41,074 nucleotides of DNA from Patescibacteria group bacterium (GCA_030916945.1 JAUPVS010000010.1:1-41074), one strand, 5' to 3'; shown: positions 4,480 through 27,334, counted from the first letter of the stretch. Notes: generated by a model not told the origin, from the letters alone. Numbers and translations are program-made.

Positions 4480-4500
4480 AACTACAGAAGAAAGGTTTAT

Positions 4501-5127
4501 ATGTCTAGTAGTTCTGGTTATTCTGGCAATCAACAGGGGTTCGGCAGCCTTGGCCTGTTACTGATTGGCGTAATCTTGCTGATTGGCGGTATTGGGGTGT
4601 ATGTGTTTACGCAGCGCCCAACTTCCCAACCAGCCTCGACCGAATCTTCCACCGCCACTACATCAACCGGAACCAGCACCTCGCCGGGCGGCATTCCCGG
4701 TGGTGCTAACGGCGGGACTACTACTGGTACGGCAGCGTCGACAAATATCGTTAAGATCACCTCTGTTGGTATGCAATTAACTGTTCCCGATTCCTTGAAG
4801 GATCTAACCTACGCGCTTAAGCCGGTAGCCGGTGGCGCCACCGAAGTTACTTTTTCAACCAAAACGCTGGCCGGCCGCGTGCCCAGCTGCGCCGCCGACC
4901 AAGGCTCGGGCGCTTTTCAAACCGTTACCCGCGGACCCGGCAGTTACCCCGGCCCGGCTAACCCCTCACGCGGCGCCCTTCTTAAGCAATATGATAGCTA
5001 CTACTTTGCCTACACCTTACCGACCGGCCCCTGTGCCAAAGGCCTTTCGGTAGAGAACCAAAACCTGCTCAACAGCCTGGCTCAGGACTTCTCCGGCGCC
5101 CTGCCATCAGTTACAGCGCTGTTGTAG
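4501..5127 (+). CDS. Single-pass membrane protein, pilin-like leader, unknown function
   Basis: A 208-residue protein. ATG 4501 is chosen because AAAGG lies about 5 nt upstream and the promoter lies at 4451-4479. The N-terminus SGNQQGFGSLGLLLIGVILLIGGIGVYVF looks like a prepilin leader (Gly13-Phe14) and hydrophobic helix, but the mature position 5 residue is Gly instead of Glu. It may be a non-canonical (GspK/PilX-type) pilin or simply a membrane-anchored protein. A Thr/Ser/Gly-rich linker (about residues 38-80) leads to a C-terminal domain of about 125 residues with two cysteines (PSCAAD and GPCAKG) that could form a disulfide outside the cell. It is divergent from the pilB1 operon, which suggests but does not prove a pilus link. 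Confidence 0.72.
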   Translation: MSSSSGYSGNQQGFGSLGLLLIGVILLIGGIGVYVFTQRPTSQPASTESSTATTSTGTSTSPGGIPGGANGGTTTGTAASTNIVKITSVGMQLTVPDSLKDLTYALKPVAGGATEVTFSTKTLAGRVPSCAADQGSGAFQTVTRGPGSYPGPANPSRGALLKQYDSYYFAYTLPTGPCAKGLSVENQNLLNSLAQDFSGALPSVTALL

Positions 5128-8368: not shown

Positions 8369-8389
8369 GCTGGTGCGAGATACGAGAAT
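8369..8389 (-). repeat. Truncated copy of the tRNA-Gly 3' end
   Basis: Twenty-one nt identical to 8446-8466. This covers the CCA end, the acceptor 3' strand and the T-stem 3' strand of the adjacent tRNA-Gly. The copies are direct repeats 77 nt apart with the fragment downstream of the intact gene, like the attL/attR remnants of tRNA-targeted integration. Confidence 0.85.
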
Positions 8390-8447
8390 ACTTGCTACGC
8401 TCATTTCTCTACTCTCCCAGCTAAACCGAACATAACAGTTCTTTAGC

Positions 8448-8521
8448 TGGTGCGAGATACGAGAATCAAACTCGTGCCTCTTGCTTGGGAAGCAAGCGTA
8501 CTATCATTATACTAATCTCGC
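8448..8521 (-). tRNA. tRNA-Gly (anticodon CCC)
   Basis: Cloverleaf read on the minus strand: acceptor GCGAGAT/ATCTCGC, D arm GTAT/GTAC, anticodon stem CTTGC/GCAAG around loop TTCCCAA, T arm ACGAG/CTCGT, discriminator A and an encoded CCA (8448-8450). The variable loop is 4 nt. Confidence 0.95.
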
Positions 8522-8542: not shown

Positions 8543-8561
8543 TGGAGCCACCTAGCAGGAT
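8543..8561 (-). repeat. Truncated copy of the tRNA-Thr 3' end
   Basis: Nineteen nt identical to 8708-8726, the CCA, acceptor 3' strand and T-arm start of tRNA-Thr. Like the tRNA-Gly fragment, it lies downstream of its intact parent, with a hairpin-rich spacer between them. Confidence 0.85.
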
Positions 8562-8707
8562 AAGCCTTCGGCTTGCGACTTCGGCGCTTTCTCGGTGCAA
8601 GCACCTGCGACAGCACCTTGTCTTCGAACTGGGGCTACGCCCTTAAGTTCTTCTCTGCTGTGACTAAAATATCTGTCATTGTCCCTCTGGGACAGTGCCA
8701 GATATTT
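8562..8707 (-). repeat. Hairpin-rich spacer element downstream of tRNA-Thr
   Basis: This 146-nt stretch lies between tRNA-Thr and its 3'-end copy. It contains several small hairpins (AAGCC/GGCTT, GGTGC/GCACC, and a GGGC-TAC-GCCC hairpin inside a GAAC/GTTC stem) and a longer stem at about 8669-8707 (AAATATCTG... with CAGATATTT). TTCGAACTGGGGCTACGCCC at 8623-8642 matches the repeats beside tRNA-Asp except for one substitution over the shared core. I see no protein-coding frame. Confidence 0.6.
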
Positions 8708-8782
8708 GGAGCCACCTAGCAGGATCGAACTGCTGACCTACACGTTACGAATGTGTCGCTCTACCAACTGAGCTAAGGTGGC
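8708..8782 (-). tRNA. tRNA-Thr (anticodon CGT)
   Basis: Minus-strand cloverleaf with acceptor GCCACCT/AGGTGGC, D arm GCTC/GAGC, anticodon loop TTCGTAA (anticodon CGT), T arm AGCAG/CTGCT, discriminator T and an encoded CCA. The innermost anticodon-stem pair (31-39) is an A-C mismatch. Confidence 0.94.
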
Positions 8783-20505: not shown

Positions 20506-20532
20506 TGGCGGCGGCTGTGGCTTCTGTGACTA
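20506..20532 (-). repeat. tRNA-end-like 3' border of the VOC gene
   Basis: Reading leftward, the TAG stop of the VOC gene is followed by CACAGAAGCCACAGCCGCCGCCA. The end resembles the 3' terminus of tRNA-Asp (GGGCCCGCCA) and the borders at 21346, 21698 and 22487. Confidence 0.4.
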
Positions 20533-20910
20533 CTTGTCTTTGGTGAAGAACGAGATGTGAAAACCTTCGGGGTCAGTAATGCGAAACGAAGTGTCTCCCC
20601 AGCTATTGTGACGCAAGCCATGAACTATTGGCGTGTTGTCTTTTAGTTTTTCCCATAGAGAATTAACATCTGTTACCTCCCAGGAAACATCGGCTCCTTG
20701 AACGGGCTTGTAGCCGTCTGCCGGGCTAAGAAGTTCAAGCGTAGTGCTGCCCACAGAGAACATGACTCCTTTGTTGACTGGGCCATTATCCCACTCGTGA
20801 AACACCGGGAAGCCTAATTTATGTTCGTAAAAGTCTCGCACTAGCTTAAAATCTTTTGGGTAAAGCTTAAGACGGAATTCTTTTACAGAAGTTAGCTTTG
20901 GGTCAATCAC
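20530..20910 (-). CDS. VOC-superfamily (glyoxalase/bleomycin-resistance-like) protein
   Basis: A 126-residue protein of the vicinal-oxygen-chelate fold with two beta-alpha-beta-beta-beta modules: KEFRLKLYPKDFKLVRDFYEHKLGFPVFHEWDNGPVNKGVMFSVGSTTLELLSP, then VSWEVTDVNSLWEKLKD...FRITDPEGFHISFFTK. The closing DPEGFHISFF is the hallmark C-terminal strand. Metal ligands of glyoxalase I are not all evident, so it may be a binding or drug-sequestering protein, not an enzyme. Its ATG overlaps the pyrophosphatase-like gene stop by 4 nt, so the two are translationally coupled. Confidence 0.85.
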   Translation of the reverse strand: MIDPKLTSVKEFRLKLYPKDFKLVRDFYEHKLGFPVFHEWDNGPVNKGVMFSVGSTTLELLSPADGYKPVQGADVSWEVTDVNSLWEKLKDNTPIVHGLRHNSWGDTSFRITDPEGFHISFFTKDK

Positions 20911-21302
20911 TCTTTGTCCTTATACGGCTCAATTGCAGCCAACACAGCGTCAACGTCTGGCAATTCCTGATGATCAACCAGAACCGGCTCCAGCTCTTTT
21001 AAGACCAAAGCAAGCTCTTCTTTAGTGAGCCCTATATAGAACTTACGTTCATGCCCAATACTGCTGCCGCGGTCCACAACCAGGCTACCGGCTTCGCCGT
21101 CGACTGCTTTGCCGACAAAGAAATCCAGCTCATGCGTATCTTCGGCCGTGTAGCCAGGAATGTTTCCGTAATCGACCGGATATGTCACACCCTTGAGCGG
21201 ATAAGTGCTGCCGGGTGATAACTCAAAATCGTAATACTGATTGGCTGGCACATCGATAACGAAGTTCCTCAGAGGTTGAGGTAGCTGTTCTGCGATATTC
21301 AT
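20907..21302 (-). CDS. Degenerate inorganic-pyrophosphatase-like protein
   Basis: A 131-residue protein. YPLKGVTYPVDYGNIPGYTAEDTHELDFFVG resembles the family I soluble pyrophosphatase core (YPxDYGFIPGTxxEDGDPLDVLVL). The metal-binding triad EDGDPLD appears as EDTHELD, so the second Asp is His, and the conserved later D...D.K segment is not evident. The protein is also about 40 residues shorter than the usual 170-180. Loss or change of activity is likely. A TATAGT -10 box (21309-21314) ends 6 nt before ATG 21302 (leaderless). It is coupled to the VOC gene by a 4-nt overlap. Confidence 0.6.
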   Translation of the reverse strand: MNIAEQLPQPLRNFVIDVPANQYYDFELSPGSTYPLKGVTYPVDYGNIPGYTAEDTHELDFFVGKAVDGEAGSLVVDRGSSIGHERKFYIGLTKEELALVLKELEPVLVDHQELPDVDAVLAAIEPYKDKE

Positions 21303-21345
21303 GATTTAACTATAGCAAAAAAGATCGGGTGGACGTACTTGTGCT

Positions 21346-21360
21346 TAGCGGGCGGTGGAG
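21346..21360 (-). repeat. tRNA-end-like 3' border of the 21377 gene
   Basis: CTCCACCGCCCGCTA in the leftward reading, followed by AGCA. It resembles the border of the next gene (CTCCACAGCCACGGCTCGCCA, then AGCA) and the tRNA-Asp 3' end. It is the weakest member of the set. Confidence 0.35.
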
Positions 21361-21376
21361 TCTATATTTCGAAAAG

Positions 21377-21658
21377 CTAAACAGTACGGATGGTTTCTGG
21401 GGTGCCTGTCCAAGCACCAGCTTCAGTTAGACGTACTCTGCTGGGGTCTTGTTCATCGAGAGCTAATAAGCCATCTTGGACTAGGCTAATGGCGGCAGCT
21501 AGGCTATCTGTAGTGTTTGCAATGGTTTCGAGTAATAGCGTACCGCCCGTCAGTGCAGCAGTAGCGACGAGTGCCCTTCTTGCCTCAGAAAATTCTGGAT
21601 CATTTATCTCAGACCATCGCGGTCCGGGCAAATAAAGGTTTTCAATATCAGATGACAT
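21377..21658 (-). CDS. Small hypothetical protein, 93 residues
   Basis: ATG 21658 is preferred to 21664 because TATTTT at 21665-21670 ends 6 nt before it. The protein is helical: PEFSEARRALVATAALTGGTLLLETIANTTDSLAAAISLVQDGLLALDEQDPS, with amphipathic rather than membrane-spanning character. No family is recognised. It sits in the tRNA-Asp-proximal block as an isolated gene with its own promoter and a tRNA-end-like 3' border, like its neighbours. Confidence 0.5.
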   Translation of the reverse strand: MSSDIENLYLPGPRWSEINDPEFSEARRALVATAALTGGTLLLETIANTTDSLAAAISLVQDGLLALDEQDPSRVRLTEAGAWTGTPETIRTV

Positions 21659-21697
21659 AAACAAAAAATACCATTTTTCAGGTATTCTGTCGATGCT

Positions 21698-21729
21698 TGG
21701 CGAGCCGTGGCTGTGGAGGTGTGGAACTA
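21698..21729 (-). repeat. tRNA-end-like 3' border of the GNAT gene
   Basis: From the TAG stop leftward: TAGTTCCACACC, TCCACAGCCACGG, then CTCGCCA. Most positions match the border of the APH gene at 22487-22518, including the stop codon, although the two genes encode unrelated proteins. The similarity is therefore not due to coding homology. Confidence 0.6.
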
Positions 21730-22254
21730 TTTAACTGCATCAACAACATAACGGCCATTAAATTTTCCGTTACCATCCGGCGTAAACTCATCTTCCACAC
21801 GGGCTACACCAGCTTGCGCCAATCGCTCCCATACCTTTTTAGCACCCTCAGTCTGTGACCATTCGTGCGTTTGAAAATCATAGCCGTCACGCATCGCTTG
21901 TTCTATTACGGTTTTATAGGCTGCCGTACCGAAACCCTTACCCTTTTCGTTTACTTCTATTCCGTTAAACCACCGGGCACGAGCCATATTATCGCTTACA
22001 ACTGTACACCTCCCAATAGTCTCACCGTTGTATATAATCAGCGAGGGCCGTGGGACGAGACTTCCTCGTCCAACGCGAGTAGATGGATCGTTTACTATCT
22101 CTACAGATGGGAGTGTGTGGGTAGGATCAATAGCCTCGGATACTTGGCTGGCACGTTGCAACCGAGGGCCTATTTCTAAACCCAAAATCGCTGGCGCGGC
22201 TTCTTGAGCAGTCGACGCCGGATCTAATTCTTGTAGTTGAGTAAATTCTGTCAT
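21727..22254 (-). CDS. GNAT-like N-acetyltransferase
   Basis: A 175-residue protein from ATG 22254 (22275 is also in frame but lies next to a perfect inverted repeat). The C-terminal half is GNAT-like: SLIIYNGETIGRCTVVSDNMARARWFNGIEVNEKGKGFGTAAYKTVIEQAMRDGY, with the acetyl-CoA loop EKGKGFGT, then AKKVWERLAQAGVAR. The N-terminal 60 residues are low in structure and may form a partner-binding segment. The acceptor is unknown. The 3' border is shared with the neighbouring APH gene. Confidence 0.75.
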   Translation of the reverse strand: MTEFTQLQELDPASTAQEAAPAILGLEIGPRLQRASQVSEAIDPTHTLPSVEIVNDPSTRVGRGSLVPRPSLIIYNGETIGRCTVVSDNMARARWFNGIEVNEKGKGFGTAAYKTVIEQAMRDGYDFQTHEWSQTEGAKKVWERLAQAGVARVEDEFTPDGNGKFNGRYVVDAVK

Positions 22255-22281
22255 TTTTGTTTTTTGCTGTGACATAAAAAT

Positions 22282-22301
22282 AGTACCACAAAAGTGGTAC
22301 T
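22282..22301. promoter_or_regulatory. Perfect 8-bp inverted repeat upstream of the GNAT gene
   Basis: AGTACCAC-AAAA-GTGGTACT. In the leftward direction it is followed by an AT-rich stretch ending near the GNAT start, so it may be an operator or a terminator for upstream transcription. The sequence does not decide. Confidence 0.45.
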
Positions 22302-22313
22302 TTGTCTAGTTAC

Positions 22314-22327
22314 TGGCGGGCCCGACC
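22314..22327 (-). repeat. Truncated copy of the tRNA-Asp 3' end
   Basis: GGTCGGGCCCGCCA in leftward reading is identical to the last 14 nt of tRNA-Asp at 23595-23608. It lies 1.28 kb downstream of the intact gene, just beyond repeat A. Confidence 0.8.
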
Positions 22328-22332
22328 TACTA

Positions 22333-22492
22333 AACGCTTCGCTAGTGTCTGAGCTCGTCCTCGAAGCACGCTATGCTGCTTCTGCGGGCGAGCTGGACGA
22401 TCGAACCGGGGCTACGCCTATCCGTTTCGTTTCCGTTGGGCTGTGAGCAAATAAAAAAGCACTCTATCGAGTGCATTTTGATTTGCTGGCGG
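22333..22492 (-). repeat. 160-nt hairpin-rich repeat, copy A
   Basis: About 97% identical to 23440-23600. It holds nested hairpins (a GAAGCA...TGCTTC stem, and a GGGC-TAC-GCCC hairpin) and, at its upstream end, an intrinsic terminator (GCACTC/GAGTGC at 22459-22474 with a T run at 22453-22458, leftward). Copy A follows the APH gene and serves as its terminator. No protein is encoded. Confidence 0.9.
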
Positions 22493-22518
22493 TCCGTGGC
22501 GCTGGCGGTGTGGAACTA
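22487..22518 (-). repeat. tRNA-end-like 3' border of the APH gene
   Basis: TAGTTCCACACC, GCCAGCGCCACGG, then ACCGCCA in leftward reading, joining repeat A at the same point where repeat B joins the tRNA-Asp CCA end. Both junctions read CGCCA then GCAAATC. Confidence 0.65.
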
Positions 22519-23409
22519 TTGGGCTGCAAGAGCTTCTTCCCCTAACGCAATATAGGGGCCGGAGTAACGGGTATTGTGAGCGGCGTTCCATGTCGCACAG
22601 ACCCCTGCTGCGTAAGCAACTGCAAGGCCGAAAGCTTTCCGTTCCTCAGCAGTAAGAGGTTCTTTGGCGGCGGCGTTGTAGCCATCAAGCAGCTTATCAA
22701 TGAGCTCCTGCGAAGAATATTCGGTTTCCATCCGCATTGATAGATAAGTTCTAGCTAGGTCAATAATTCGATAAGTGTTCTCGGCTGTTTCTAGGTCAAA
22801 TACTGCTGTTACCTTATCGCCATCAGCAAACACATTACCAAGCCACAAGTCGCCATGCGTGACTGACTTCGGTAGATCAAGTTCAAATAGTGACTTCCCG
22901 TTCTCAATCAAATTAGTGAGCTTGTCTTTAAGAGGCCCATCGTAAGCCGCCAAATCTTCTTCGGCATTATTAAGATTAAACCACTGCATTTTGCTAGGTG
23001 GCACATCCATACCTTCAAGACTATTGTGCAGTTTAGCGAGTGTTGCTCCGAAATCAGCCACAAGCTCAAGTGAGGCCGACTTTGGTGCTTCTCCTTCAAT
23101 ACGTTTGCTGAGGGTAAAGGAAGTACCATCGTGCATGCCCACAAATCCACCACCCTCAAGTTCTATATAAGCCGGAGTACGCACACCTGCTTCTGCTAGC
23201 CTAATCTGCATAGCAGCTTCCACCTGTACAGTTTCAGGCAGCTGAGTTTTGAGCACTCTCATGACGTATCTTTGGCCGTTCATATCTGTGAGGTTGTAAA
23301 CATCATTAGCAAAGGCATCTGGATTACGTTCGGAACTGACAAGTTCGTCATCTACATAACTATGAAAGAGCTGGTTAAGTTCAGGGGTATCAAGATTAGC
23401 TTCAGTCAT
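22516..23409 (-). CDS. Aminoglycoside-phosphotransferase (APH)-family kinase
   Basis: A 297-residue protein-kinase-like phosphotransferase. The N-lobe has VYNLTDMNGQRYVMRVLK (ATP-binding Lys). The catalytic loop THGDLWLGN carries His185, Asp187 and Asn192, and VFDLETAE carries the metal-binding Asp205. The family includes aminoglycoside, choline, homoserine and fructosamine kinases; the substrate cannot be fixed and antibiotic resistance should not be assumed. TATGAT at 23416-23421 ends 6 nt before ATG 23409 (leaderless). The gene lies between the two 160-nt repeats downstream of tRNA-Asp, like a cassette. Confidence 0.86.
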   Translation of the reverse strand: MTEANLDTPELNQLFHSYVDDELVSSERNPDAFANDVYNLTDMNGQRYVMRVLKTQLPETVQVEAAMQIRLAEAGVRTPAYIELEGGGFVGMHDGTSFTLSKRIEGEAPKSASLELVADFGATLAKLHNSLEGMDVPPSKMQWFNLNNAEEDLAAYDGPLKDKLTNLIENGKSLFELDLPKSVTHGDLWLGNVFADGDKVTAVFDLETAENTYRIIDLARTYLSMRMETEYSSQELIDKLLDGYNAAAKEPLTAEERKAFGLAVAYAAGVCATWNAAHNTRYSGPYIALGEEALAAQ

Positions 23410-23428
23410 GGGTACATCATAGCAGAAT

Positions 23429-23438
23429 CCGACCGGAT
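23429..23438 (-). repeat. Short tRNA-Asp T-arm fragment
   Basis: ATCCGGTCGG in leftward reading matches the T-arm/acceptor junction of tRNA-Asp and lies 1 nt beyond the end of repeat B. At ten nt it is significant only because of its position, equivalent to the fragment at 22314-22327. Confidence 0.45.
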
Positions 23439-23439
23439 G

Positions 23440-23600
23440 AACGCTTCGCTAGTGTCTGCGCCCGTCCTCGAAGCACGCTATGCTGCTTCTGCGGGCGAGC
23501 TGGACGATCGAACCGGGGCTACGCCCTATCCGTTTCGTTTCCGTTGGGCTGTGAGCAAATAAAAAAGCACTCTATCGAGTGCATTTTGATTTGCTGGCGG
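23440..23600 (-). repeat. 160-nt hairpin-rich repeat, copy B, directly downstream of tRNA-Asp
   Basis: Near-identical to 22333-22492, with two small differences near 23459 and one extra C at the GGGC-TAC-GCCC hairpin. It begins within the last bases of tRNA-Asp. Copy B probably forms a structured 3' trailer of the tRNA transcript. Confidence 0.9.
23561..23582 (-). terminator. Intrinsic terminator of tRNA-Asp
   Basis: GCACTC-GATA-GAGTGC followed by six T in the leftward direction, 13 nt after the CCA end. If it is efficient, the rest of repeat B is not transcribed from the tRNA promoter. Confidence 0.85.
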
Positions 23601-23672
23601 GCCCGACCGGATTCGAACCGGCGATCTCCTCCGTGACAGGGAGGCGTGTTAGGCCAGCTACACCACGGGCCC
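23595..23672 (-). tRNA. tRNA-Asp (anticodon GTC)
   Basis: Minus-strand cloverleaf: acceptor GGGCCCG/CGGGCCC, anticodon stem CCTCC/GGAGG around CTGTCAC (anticodon GTC), T arm GCCGG/CCGGT with loop TTCGAAT, discriminator G and an encoded CCA. Confidence 0.95.
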
Positions 23673-25574: not shown

Positions 25575-25649
25575 GTCCCCGTAGTTCAATGGATAGAATA
25601 ACTCCGTCCTAAGGAGCAGATAGCGGTTCGAATCCGTTCGGGGATACCA
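25575..25649 (+). tRNA. tRNA-Arg (anticodon CCT)
   Basis: Acceptor GTCCCCG/CGGGGAT with a G-T first pair, anticodon loop GTCCTAA (anticodon CCT, T33 present), T arm AGCGG/CCGTT-type with loop TTCGAAT, discriminator A and an encoded CCA. It is the only tRNA here on the plus strand and the only one without a 3'-end copy downstream. Confidence 0.93.
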
Positions 25650-26354: not shown

Positions 26355-26413
26355 TGGCTCAATTGTAACAGATGTGACGGGGCTTTTCTACCCCAATGTC
26401 GTACAATATAGTT

Positions 26414-27334
26414 ATGCTATTCGCTAAAGCTAAAACCGATTTTTTGGAATACTTGGAAATTGAACAAAATCGTTCCCAAAAAACGATATCCAACTACGAC
26501 CATTACCTGACCCGCTTGAGCGACTTTGCCGGTGACATTAAGGTGTCCGCTATCGATGGCGAGTTAATTCGCAAATGGCGCCTGTGGCTCAACCGCCTCG
26601 GTACCAACACCAGTGACGAACTGCAAAAAACCACCCAGAACTACCACCTGATTGCCCTGCGTAGCTTTCTAAGGTACTGCGGTAAACGCGACATCGCCGC
26701 CCTGCCCCCAGACAAGATTGAGTTAGCCAAGACCGTCCGCAAGCAAGTTACTTTTTTGAACCCCGACGAACTAGGCCGATTATTTAGTCAACCAGATGTC
26801 AGCGGACTAGCCGGTTTGCGTGACAGGGCCATCTTAGAACTGTTATTTAGTAGTGGTTTGCGCGTCTCTGAACTGGTTGGCCTGGATCGTGACCACATTA
26901 ACTTGAAGCGGCGCGAGTTTATGGTGCGCGGTAAGGGCCAAAAAGACCGACCGATCTTTATTAGCCCCGATGCCGCCGAATGGGTGCAAAAGTACCTAAC
27001 CGAACGCCAAGACACGGCTCAGCCCCTGTTCGTACGTTACAGTGGCACTAAGCAGGCCGATACCAGTGGTAACTTTAGCCGCCTAACGGCGCGTAGTGTC
27101 CAGCGTATGGTGGCCCGTTATGCCCTGCTGGCCGGTATTACTAAGCATGTTTCTCCCCATACCCTGCGACATTCGTTTGCGACTGACTTATTAATGAACG
27201 GCGCCGACCTGCGTTCGGTCCAGGCCATGCTGGGTCACAGCAACATTGCCACTACCCAGATCTATACGCACGTCACCGACCCACACTTAAAGGCCGTGCA
27301 CGAAAAGTTTCACCACCATAAACCTAAAGACTAG
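26414..27334 (+). CDS. Tyrosine recombinase, XerC/XerD-like
   Basis: A 306-residue site-specific recombinase from ATG 26414 (TACAAT at 26402-26407 ends 6 nt before it, so the upstream in-frame start is rejected). The N-terminal SAM-like domain (FLEYLEIEQNRSQKTISNYDHYLTRLSDF) precedes the catalytic domain, which has SGLRVSELVGL (Arg), GKGQKDRPIF (Lys), HTLRHSFATDLLMNG (HxxR), MLGHSNIATTQIYTHV (His and nucleophile Tyr). It probably resolves chromosome dimers at dif. With only one recombinase in the window, I cannot tell whether it also serves the tRNA-associated repeats. Its stop overlaps the convergent PilX-like gene stop by 4 nt. Confidence 0.9.
   Translation: MLFAKAKTDFLEYLEIEQNRSQKTISNYDHYLTRLSDFAGDIKVSAIDGELIRKWRLWLNRLGTNTSDELQKTTQNYHLIALRSFLRYCGKRDIAALPPDKIELAKTVRKQVTFLNPDELGRLFSQPDVSGLAGLRDRAILELLFSSGLRVSELVGLDRDHINLKRREFMVRGKGQKDRPIFISPDAAEWVQKYLTERQDTAQPLFVRYSGTKQADTSGNFSRLTARSVQRMVARYALLAGITKHVSPHTLRHSFATDLLMNGADLRSVQAMLGHSNIATTQIYTHVTDPHLKAVHEKFHHHKPKD

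Follow-up and report, generated by a model that had tools for sequence, protein, structure and literature searches.

The stretch of DNA analysed here (the window) comprises 41,074 nucleotides (nt) and is contig 24 of an 860-kb genome in 27 contigs, G000, from a bacterium of the Patescibacteria group. On its minus strand, a tRNA-Asp gene is followed by a series of small units running in the same direction as the tRNA (Table 1). Going downstream, there are a gene-free structured unit, which we call U, a gene of the APH phosphotransferase family closed by a 35-nt border, a second U ending in an exact copy of the tRNA-Asp 3' end, and a GNAT-like gene closed by a border of the same type. The original prediction, made from the sequence alone, had attributed this region to repeated insertion at the 3' end of the tRNA, in which every event would bring in one small gene and leave behind an end resembling that of a tRNA. 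Our investigations support this reading, which withstood the refuting conditions posed along with it, and the core observation is real and wider than tRNA-Asp, as it extends to tRNA genes elsewhere in this genome and across Saccharibacteria.

The two repeats on which the prediction was built are 94-99% identical and both abut CGCCA, and the 14-nt copy of the tRNA-Asp 3' end lies where it had been noted; what had been described as repeats A and B is a separate structured unit, U, present behind many kinds of tRNA. The likeness between the ends of the unrelated APH and GNAT-like genes, claimed over about 32 nt, extends over 35 nt (0/5000 shuffles). It is also not a motif that occurs at random: a matrix made from three tRNA-Asp borders, all from genomes other than that of the window, ranked the GNAT-like and APH borders first and second when scored over 320,280 positions (next best, 15.0 bits), and the same two positions came first and second when the acceptor copy was left out of the matrix. 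Four gene borders had been proposed, and only these two hold; those of a 93-residue gene (CACCGCCCGCTA) and of a PPase/VOC gene pair score at background level. The claim of a separate promoter for every gene is weak (7 promoter-like sites vs 3.2 +/- 2.0 in shuffles), and the proteins that had been labelled GNAT and PPase gave no Pfam match at 1e-3.

Searching G000 with the region returned two short extra matches, directly behind tRNA-Asn and tRNA-Glu, and we therefore examined tRNA 3' flanks in general, beyond tRNA-Asp. In G000, 36 tRNAs were found, and the flanks of all 36 were covered. Eleven (Gly-CCC, Thr-CGT, Asp, Lys-TTT, Thr-GGT, Val-TAC, a Met, Pro-GGG, Glu-CTC, Asn and Gln-CTG) have, at most 210 nt downstream, a copy of their own 3' end (9 nt or more out of the last 20), and non-cognate matches of at least 11 nt lie mostly inside neighbouring tRNA genes. 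Exact copies of the last 10 nt were then counted on both strands, over 6 kb downstream and also upstream, for 36 tRNAs of G000 and 39 of a second genome, G024 (nearly all the tRNAs found). On the same strand downstream there are 7 and 22 such copies, respectively; on the opposite strand and upstream there are none in either genome.

The extent of the copies was measured in 41 U units, each mismatching the resident tRNA at no more than four positions, a set that also served for the terminator, third-hairpin and attC-box scans described below. Counted back from CCA, the copy has a modal length of 18 nt and a maximum of 20, with mostly 0-1 identical bases past CCA. Given these sharp limits, the copy spans the T-loop to the last base of the tRNA; it is a direct repeat of the tRNA 3' part, 18-19 nt long, and the 18-nt copy is free of mismatches in 24/41 units. 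The copies follow the tRNA behind which they lie. The resident tRNA gives strictly the best match for 49 of 62 units (control region, 1), and where a tRNA end deviates from its isoacceptors in other genomes the copy carries the resident base in 43/46 cases, the resident base being somewhat favoured because the 41 units were picked at no more than four mismatches to the resident tRNA. At one locus (L136), the tRNA-Asp ends in the variant GGGCGCGCCA, the same variant is found in two complete copies, and the gene border shares the last nine bases of the variant end (CGGCGCGCCA); a third copy further down is truncated.

U itself is about 169 nt long. It starts with a terminator right after CCA, continues with a T-arm-like helix (GAACC..GGTTCG) and a second helix whose internal loop (CGCAG .. 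CGAG) is conserved, and ends with the 18-19 nt tRNA copy. A T-run terminator-like hairpin opens 40/41 units in a lax scan for which 48% of shuffles are also positive, and some units have a third small hairpin before the copy (10/41 in a strict scan, 7% in shuffles). The structure is supported by covariation. The eight sequences from which the model of the U core (R1) was built, aligned without the model, contain 29 doubly changed cells (0/500 shuffles). After extension to 88 matches, 93.7% of cells are paired and 342 are doubly changed (0/500 shuffles as high), each pair is changed on both sides at least once and slid structures score far lower, although these counts lean towards the model because the matches were fitted to it. 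Rfam has no family for U, the nine loci searched giving tRNAs and two sub-threshold matches only. We found U in 57/149 genomes of the order, with a maximum of 23-24 per genome, and among 380 genomes sampled across the phylum it hardly occurs outside the order and class. In a genome-wide search with the model, the start of 38 of 59 matches lies no more than 90 nt behind a tRNA on the same strand, and that of 44 no more than 250 nt; several of the remaining ones are further down arrays. At six loci (L107, L109, L074, L084, L090 and L253), U matches have no same-strand tRNA upstream within the stretch examined, and may be distal ends of arrays. Two matches in other lineages of the phylum (L285 in G472 and L286 in G467) are on short stretches near contig ends, with no tRNA, in fragmented genomes, and may reflect contamination or true spread.

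Gene cassettes, in which one or a few genes close in a border of about 35 nt with an acceptor copy of about 10 nt, are also found behind other tRNAs. In G007 (L095), tRNA-Asn is followed by a terminator, a GNAT gene, a border ending in GGGAGCCA, a terminator, U and the copy; the same order is present behind tRNA-Lys in G016 (L075), with a NADAR gene and a border ending in TGGCCCTCCA. In G037 (L281), which belongs to another family, an APH gene 59% identical to that of the window lies behind tRNA-Lys and U and has a border with GGCCCTCCA. The ends depend on the tRNA: unrelated genes share leaders or borders according to the tRNA, and one APH family is closed by an Asp-type end in the window and by a Lys-type end in G037. 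Between the NADAR and APH cassettes of tRNA-Lys, the leaders are alike over 46 nt (0/5000 shuffles), whereas the two APH genes have borders that do not match. Five 35-nt Asp borders from four lineages align without gaps. The two Lys borders have a common TAGTTGC start and acceptor end, and without the acceptor copy their likeness is not significant alone (994/5000). The genes carried are small accessory enzymes (APH, GNAT, NADAR, LD-carboxypeptidase, a predicted protease) or unknown. Multi-unit arrays are found at tRNA-Gln in G024 and tRNA-Glu in G079, and units lie head to tail on the strand of the tRNA, while some inner genes run the opposite way.

Related features are present at three other loci of G000. 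Behind tRNA-Asn (L053, contig C8), a likely Asn-type border (GTCCACTAGTGGGAGCCA; 4483-4517, plus strand) lies 4.2 kb from the tRNA, after an open reading frame (ORF) of 431 amino acids (aa), and resembles the Asn border of G007 (19/5000 shuffles). Behind tRNA-Gln(CTG) (L057, contig C23, 266-2850, plus strand), two U units with related cores lie in succession, followed by a small ORF, larger opposite-strand genes and a truncated third U. Behind tRNA-Lys(CTT) (L040, contig C19, at +1326), an LD-carboxypeptidase gene following U has at its end CCTGGCCCTCCA, which copies the end of tRNA-Lys, but the next 60 nt have no obvious T-run terminator.

The comparison of relatives shows that the genes in these regions are not fixed. 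G001, from the same family as the window genome, has a U at tRNA-Asp with different genes behind it. Among three genomes of one genus (G048 being only partly covered), the number of units at orthologous tRNAs differs: behind tRNA-Arg(CCT) there is one unit in G024, two in G061 and none in G048, and at tRNA-Asp there are two copies in G024 and remnants in G061 and G048. The loci of tRNA-Ser(GGA), Gly(GCC) and Phe also differ within that genus. Some of the second units are truncated, although near-identical. At three loci of one genus (L238, L274 and L094), decayed units seem to lose the right part (second helix and copy) first and to keep the terminator and the T-arm-like start.

The best explanation of these data is, in our view, a site-specific insertion of cassettes at tRNA 3' ends that works in an integron-like manner, and we would put its probability at about 0.7. 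A system of this kind would be expected to combine constant ends with varying genes, a single orientation, borders specific to the tRNA and a structured module, as observed here. In this model, the tRNA genes of Saccharibacteria would be docking sites at which short cassettes insert by site-specific recombination. As the cassette opens with an intrinsic terminator, the tRNA would keep a proper transcript end after insertion, and as it ends with a copy of the tRNA 3' end, the next junction would remain tRNA-like. U could be the recombination module, its folded form presenting T-arm-like helices beside the 3'-end copy, and might be recognised as a single strand, as the attC hairpin of integrons is. 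A recombinase acting in trans, most simply the single Xer-like tyrosine recombinase of the host, would join U to the tRNA gene. In G000 the gene for this candidate lies 3 kb from tRNA-Asp, one such recombinase is present in nearly every genome, and no further integrases were found in the element-rich genomes G000, G007, G024 and G064. Movement of the cassettes is a process that we infer from sequence comparison. Some alternatives of detail were rejected. A Y1 transposase as the mover was set aside, as 10/21 element-bearing genomes have one and none was found in G000, G001, G007 or G064. A full palindrome in U, with the left arm pairing with the copy, showed weak tRNA specificity. The reading of U as an inverted copy of the whole tRNA 3' half was dropped, except for the T-arm part, because the antisense arm lacks tRNA specificity in its acceptor part.

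Several observations weigh against this model. The Xer-like protein does not track U, because nearly all genomes have it, whether or not they carry U. No excised circle, clean empty/filled pair with conserved flanks or dedicated integrase was found. An attC-like palindrome would predict pairing of the left arm of U with the copy, and this pairing is only weakly specific to the tRNA (median rank 0.28). At two serine tRNA loci of G024, the whole U including the copy is nearly identical, yet each tRNA retains its own end; at Ser(GGA), the copy behind is of the Ser(GCT) type. A crossover in the T-loop fails for this locus because its own end is kept, and insertion after or within the acceptor part would explain it. 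Near-identical neighbouring units could also be plain tandem duplications.

One competing explanation holds that U is a functional RNA, such as a regulatory one resembling tRNA, or a tRNA trailer. It would multiply by tandem duplication, and the genes that follow it would be incidental. The strong covariation and the conserved internal loop would fit such a role, as would the resemblance to tRNA of hairpins beside a CCA-ended strand. We nevertheless consider it unlikely: U is not simply co-transcribed with the tRNA, because the terminator precedes it, the copy number varies among close relatives down to zero or remnants, and the tRNA-specific leaders and borders on unrelated genes would be left unexplained.

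Alternatively, the 18-nt copy could be a cDNA of the 3' end of the mature tRNA, and the units retroelement-like products of tRNA-primed or tRNA-templated reverse transcription. Such a cDNA would stop at the methylated A58, as tRNA copies do at retroviral primer binding sites. Irrespective of the tRNA, the copy is sharply delimited at 18-19 nt, starting at tRNA position 58/59 and finishing with the terminal A of CCA, and it follows the resident tRNA, as this explanation would predict. A T-loop attachment site reaching the tRNA end would yield identical limits, however, and gene cassettes hold only copies of about 10 nt, so that we give reverse transcription little chance of being the source of the units. 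An equally slim chance is left to accumulated relics of ordinary integrative elements or prophages that target tRNAs and have lost their integrase genes: integration classically takes place in the T-loop and 3' end of tRNAs, and blocks of identity commonly stop at the tRNA end, but one structured family lies behind many different tRNAs with each copy fitted to its own tRNA, the gene-free units are intact and not eroded islands, apart from the single Xer, G000, G007, G024 and G064 lack integrases, and three viral pattern scans, which also bear on viral carriers, gave no model-supported U beyond a 17-bit fragment.

Cassette insertion at tRNA ends has parallels in known systems. Integrons and clusters of attC sites lacking integron integrases (CALIN) consist of mostly single-gene cassettes arranged head to tail at a fixed docking site, with a structured module, a sequence-poor recognition and arrays without a local integrase (PMC2727003, PMC11389934). 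All these array features are common to the tRNA arrays, which are cassette arrays of one orientation at a fixed docking site. They differ in that the docking site is a tRNA gene, with many tRNAs used per genome, and in that the cassette ends copy the local tRNA. The attC boxes (RYYYAAC .. GTTRRRY) are present in 0/41 U units, and no integron integrase (IntI) was found in G000, where the Xer-like protein scores 131 bits with TIGR02249 (cut-off 265) and 82.7 with PRK15417 (cut-off 435), Xer models fitting better. Because the integrase and the attC boxes fail, and because the 18-nt copy also fits tRNA-primed reverse transcription, we describe the system as working like a cassette array anchored at tRNA genes, and not as an integron. 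Integrative elements, islands and phage satellites that target tRNAs, including tycheposons, insert at tRNA 3' ends and restore the tRNA end, leaving a direct repeat. Here, too, the site is the tRNA 3' end, and the 3' part of the tRNA recurs as a direct repeat; the units, unlike these elements (phage satellites are reviewed in PMC11389934), range from 150 nt to a few kb, lie several in a row, have no integrase of their own and belong to one structured family for many tRNAs. Miniature inverted-repeat transposable elements and repetitive extragenic palindromic (REP)-type elements are likewise short, non-coding, structured, present in many copies and moved by an outside enzyme, whereas the sites here are fixed to tRNA ends in one orientation, and no Y1 transposase was found in G000, G001, G007 and G064. 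Integrative mobile elements exploiting Xer (IMEX) use the host Xer in trans, at dif. A host tyrosine recombinase would be used in trans here as well, Xer being the candidate, with tRNA ends and not dif as targets.

It is possible, although we hold it as a tentative proposal somewhat short of even odds, that these arrays represent a second, independent system of cassette capture, with tRNA docking, a folded tRNA-mimicking module as recombination site, and the single Xer of the host or a trans-supplied enzyme moving genes between tRNA loci and between Saccharibacteria. We found no published description of a tRNA-anchored cassette system in the open-access literature, a scope that limits any claim of novelty. 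If true, nature would have found a second answer to the problem that integrons solve. Such a tRNA-only array system would explain part of the gene gain in very small, host-dependent bacteria with almost no recognisable mobile-element machinery. U, the border and the tRNA end offer direct testable sites, with a single candidate enzyme.

Table 1. Features of the tRNA-Asp array and of related loci in the window.
Feature	Position	Strand	Evidence
tRNA-Asp (GTC), array anchor	23595..23672	-	ARAGORN, Rfam RF00005
U unit B	23429..23594	-	terminator 23567-23582; core R1 match 23453-23538, 68.5 bits; partial 10-nt tRNA copy 23429-23438 (DR_B)
APH-family phosphotransferase, first gene cassette	22516..23409	-	PF01636 5.5e-25; homolog in G037 behind tRNA-Lys
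35-nt Asp-type border closing APH cassette	22487..22521	-	27.2 bits, rank 2/320,280
U unit A	22314..22486	-	terminator 22459-22474; core R1 match 22346-22430, 57.4 bits; exact 14-nt tRNA-Asp 3'-end copy 22314-22327 (DR_A)
Terminator-like leader, second gene cassette	22282..22301	-	
GNAT-like 182-aa gene, second gene cassette	21727..22275	-	no Pfam match at 1e-3
35-nt Asp-type border closing GNAT-like cassette	21698..21732	-	35.9 bits, rank 1/320,280
Claimed border of 93-aa gene, unsupported	21346..21380	-	-1.3 bits; 3,869 positions equally good
Claimed border of PPase/VOC pair, unsupported	20506..20540	-	-12.1 bits
U unit behind tRNA-Thr(CGT) (8707-8782)	8543..8706	-	74.7 bits; exact 18-nt copy of tRNA-Thr(CGT) 3' end
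Short unit behind tRNA-Gly(CCC) (8448-8521)	8371..8447	-	closes with tRNA-Gly(CCC) 3'-end copy
Xer-like tyrosine recombinase, candidate enzyme	26396..27334	+	sole PF00589 protein found in genome

Two observations concern the surroundings of the array. The tRNA-Arg(CCT) of the window (25575-25649, plus strand) has no copy and no U behind it, and units are present behind this tRNA in G024, G061 and G010. In G001 (L061, contig C9), tRNA-Asp and its U are inverted relative to the SurA-like and Xer genes, as compared with the window.

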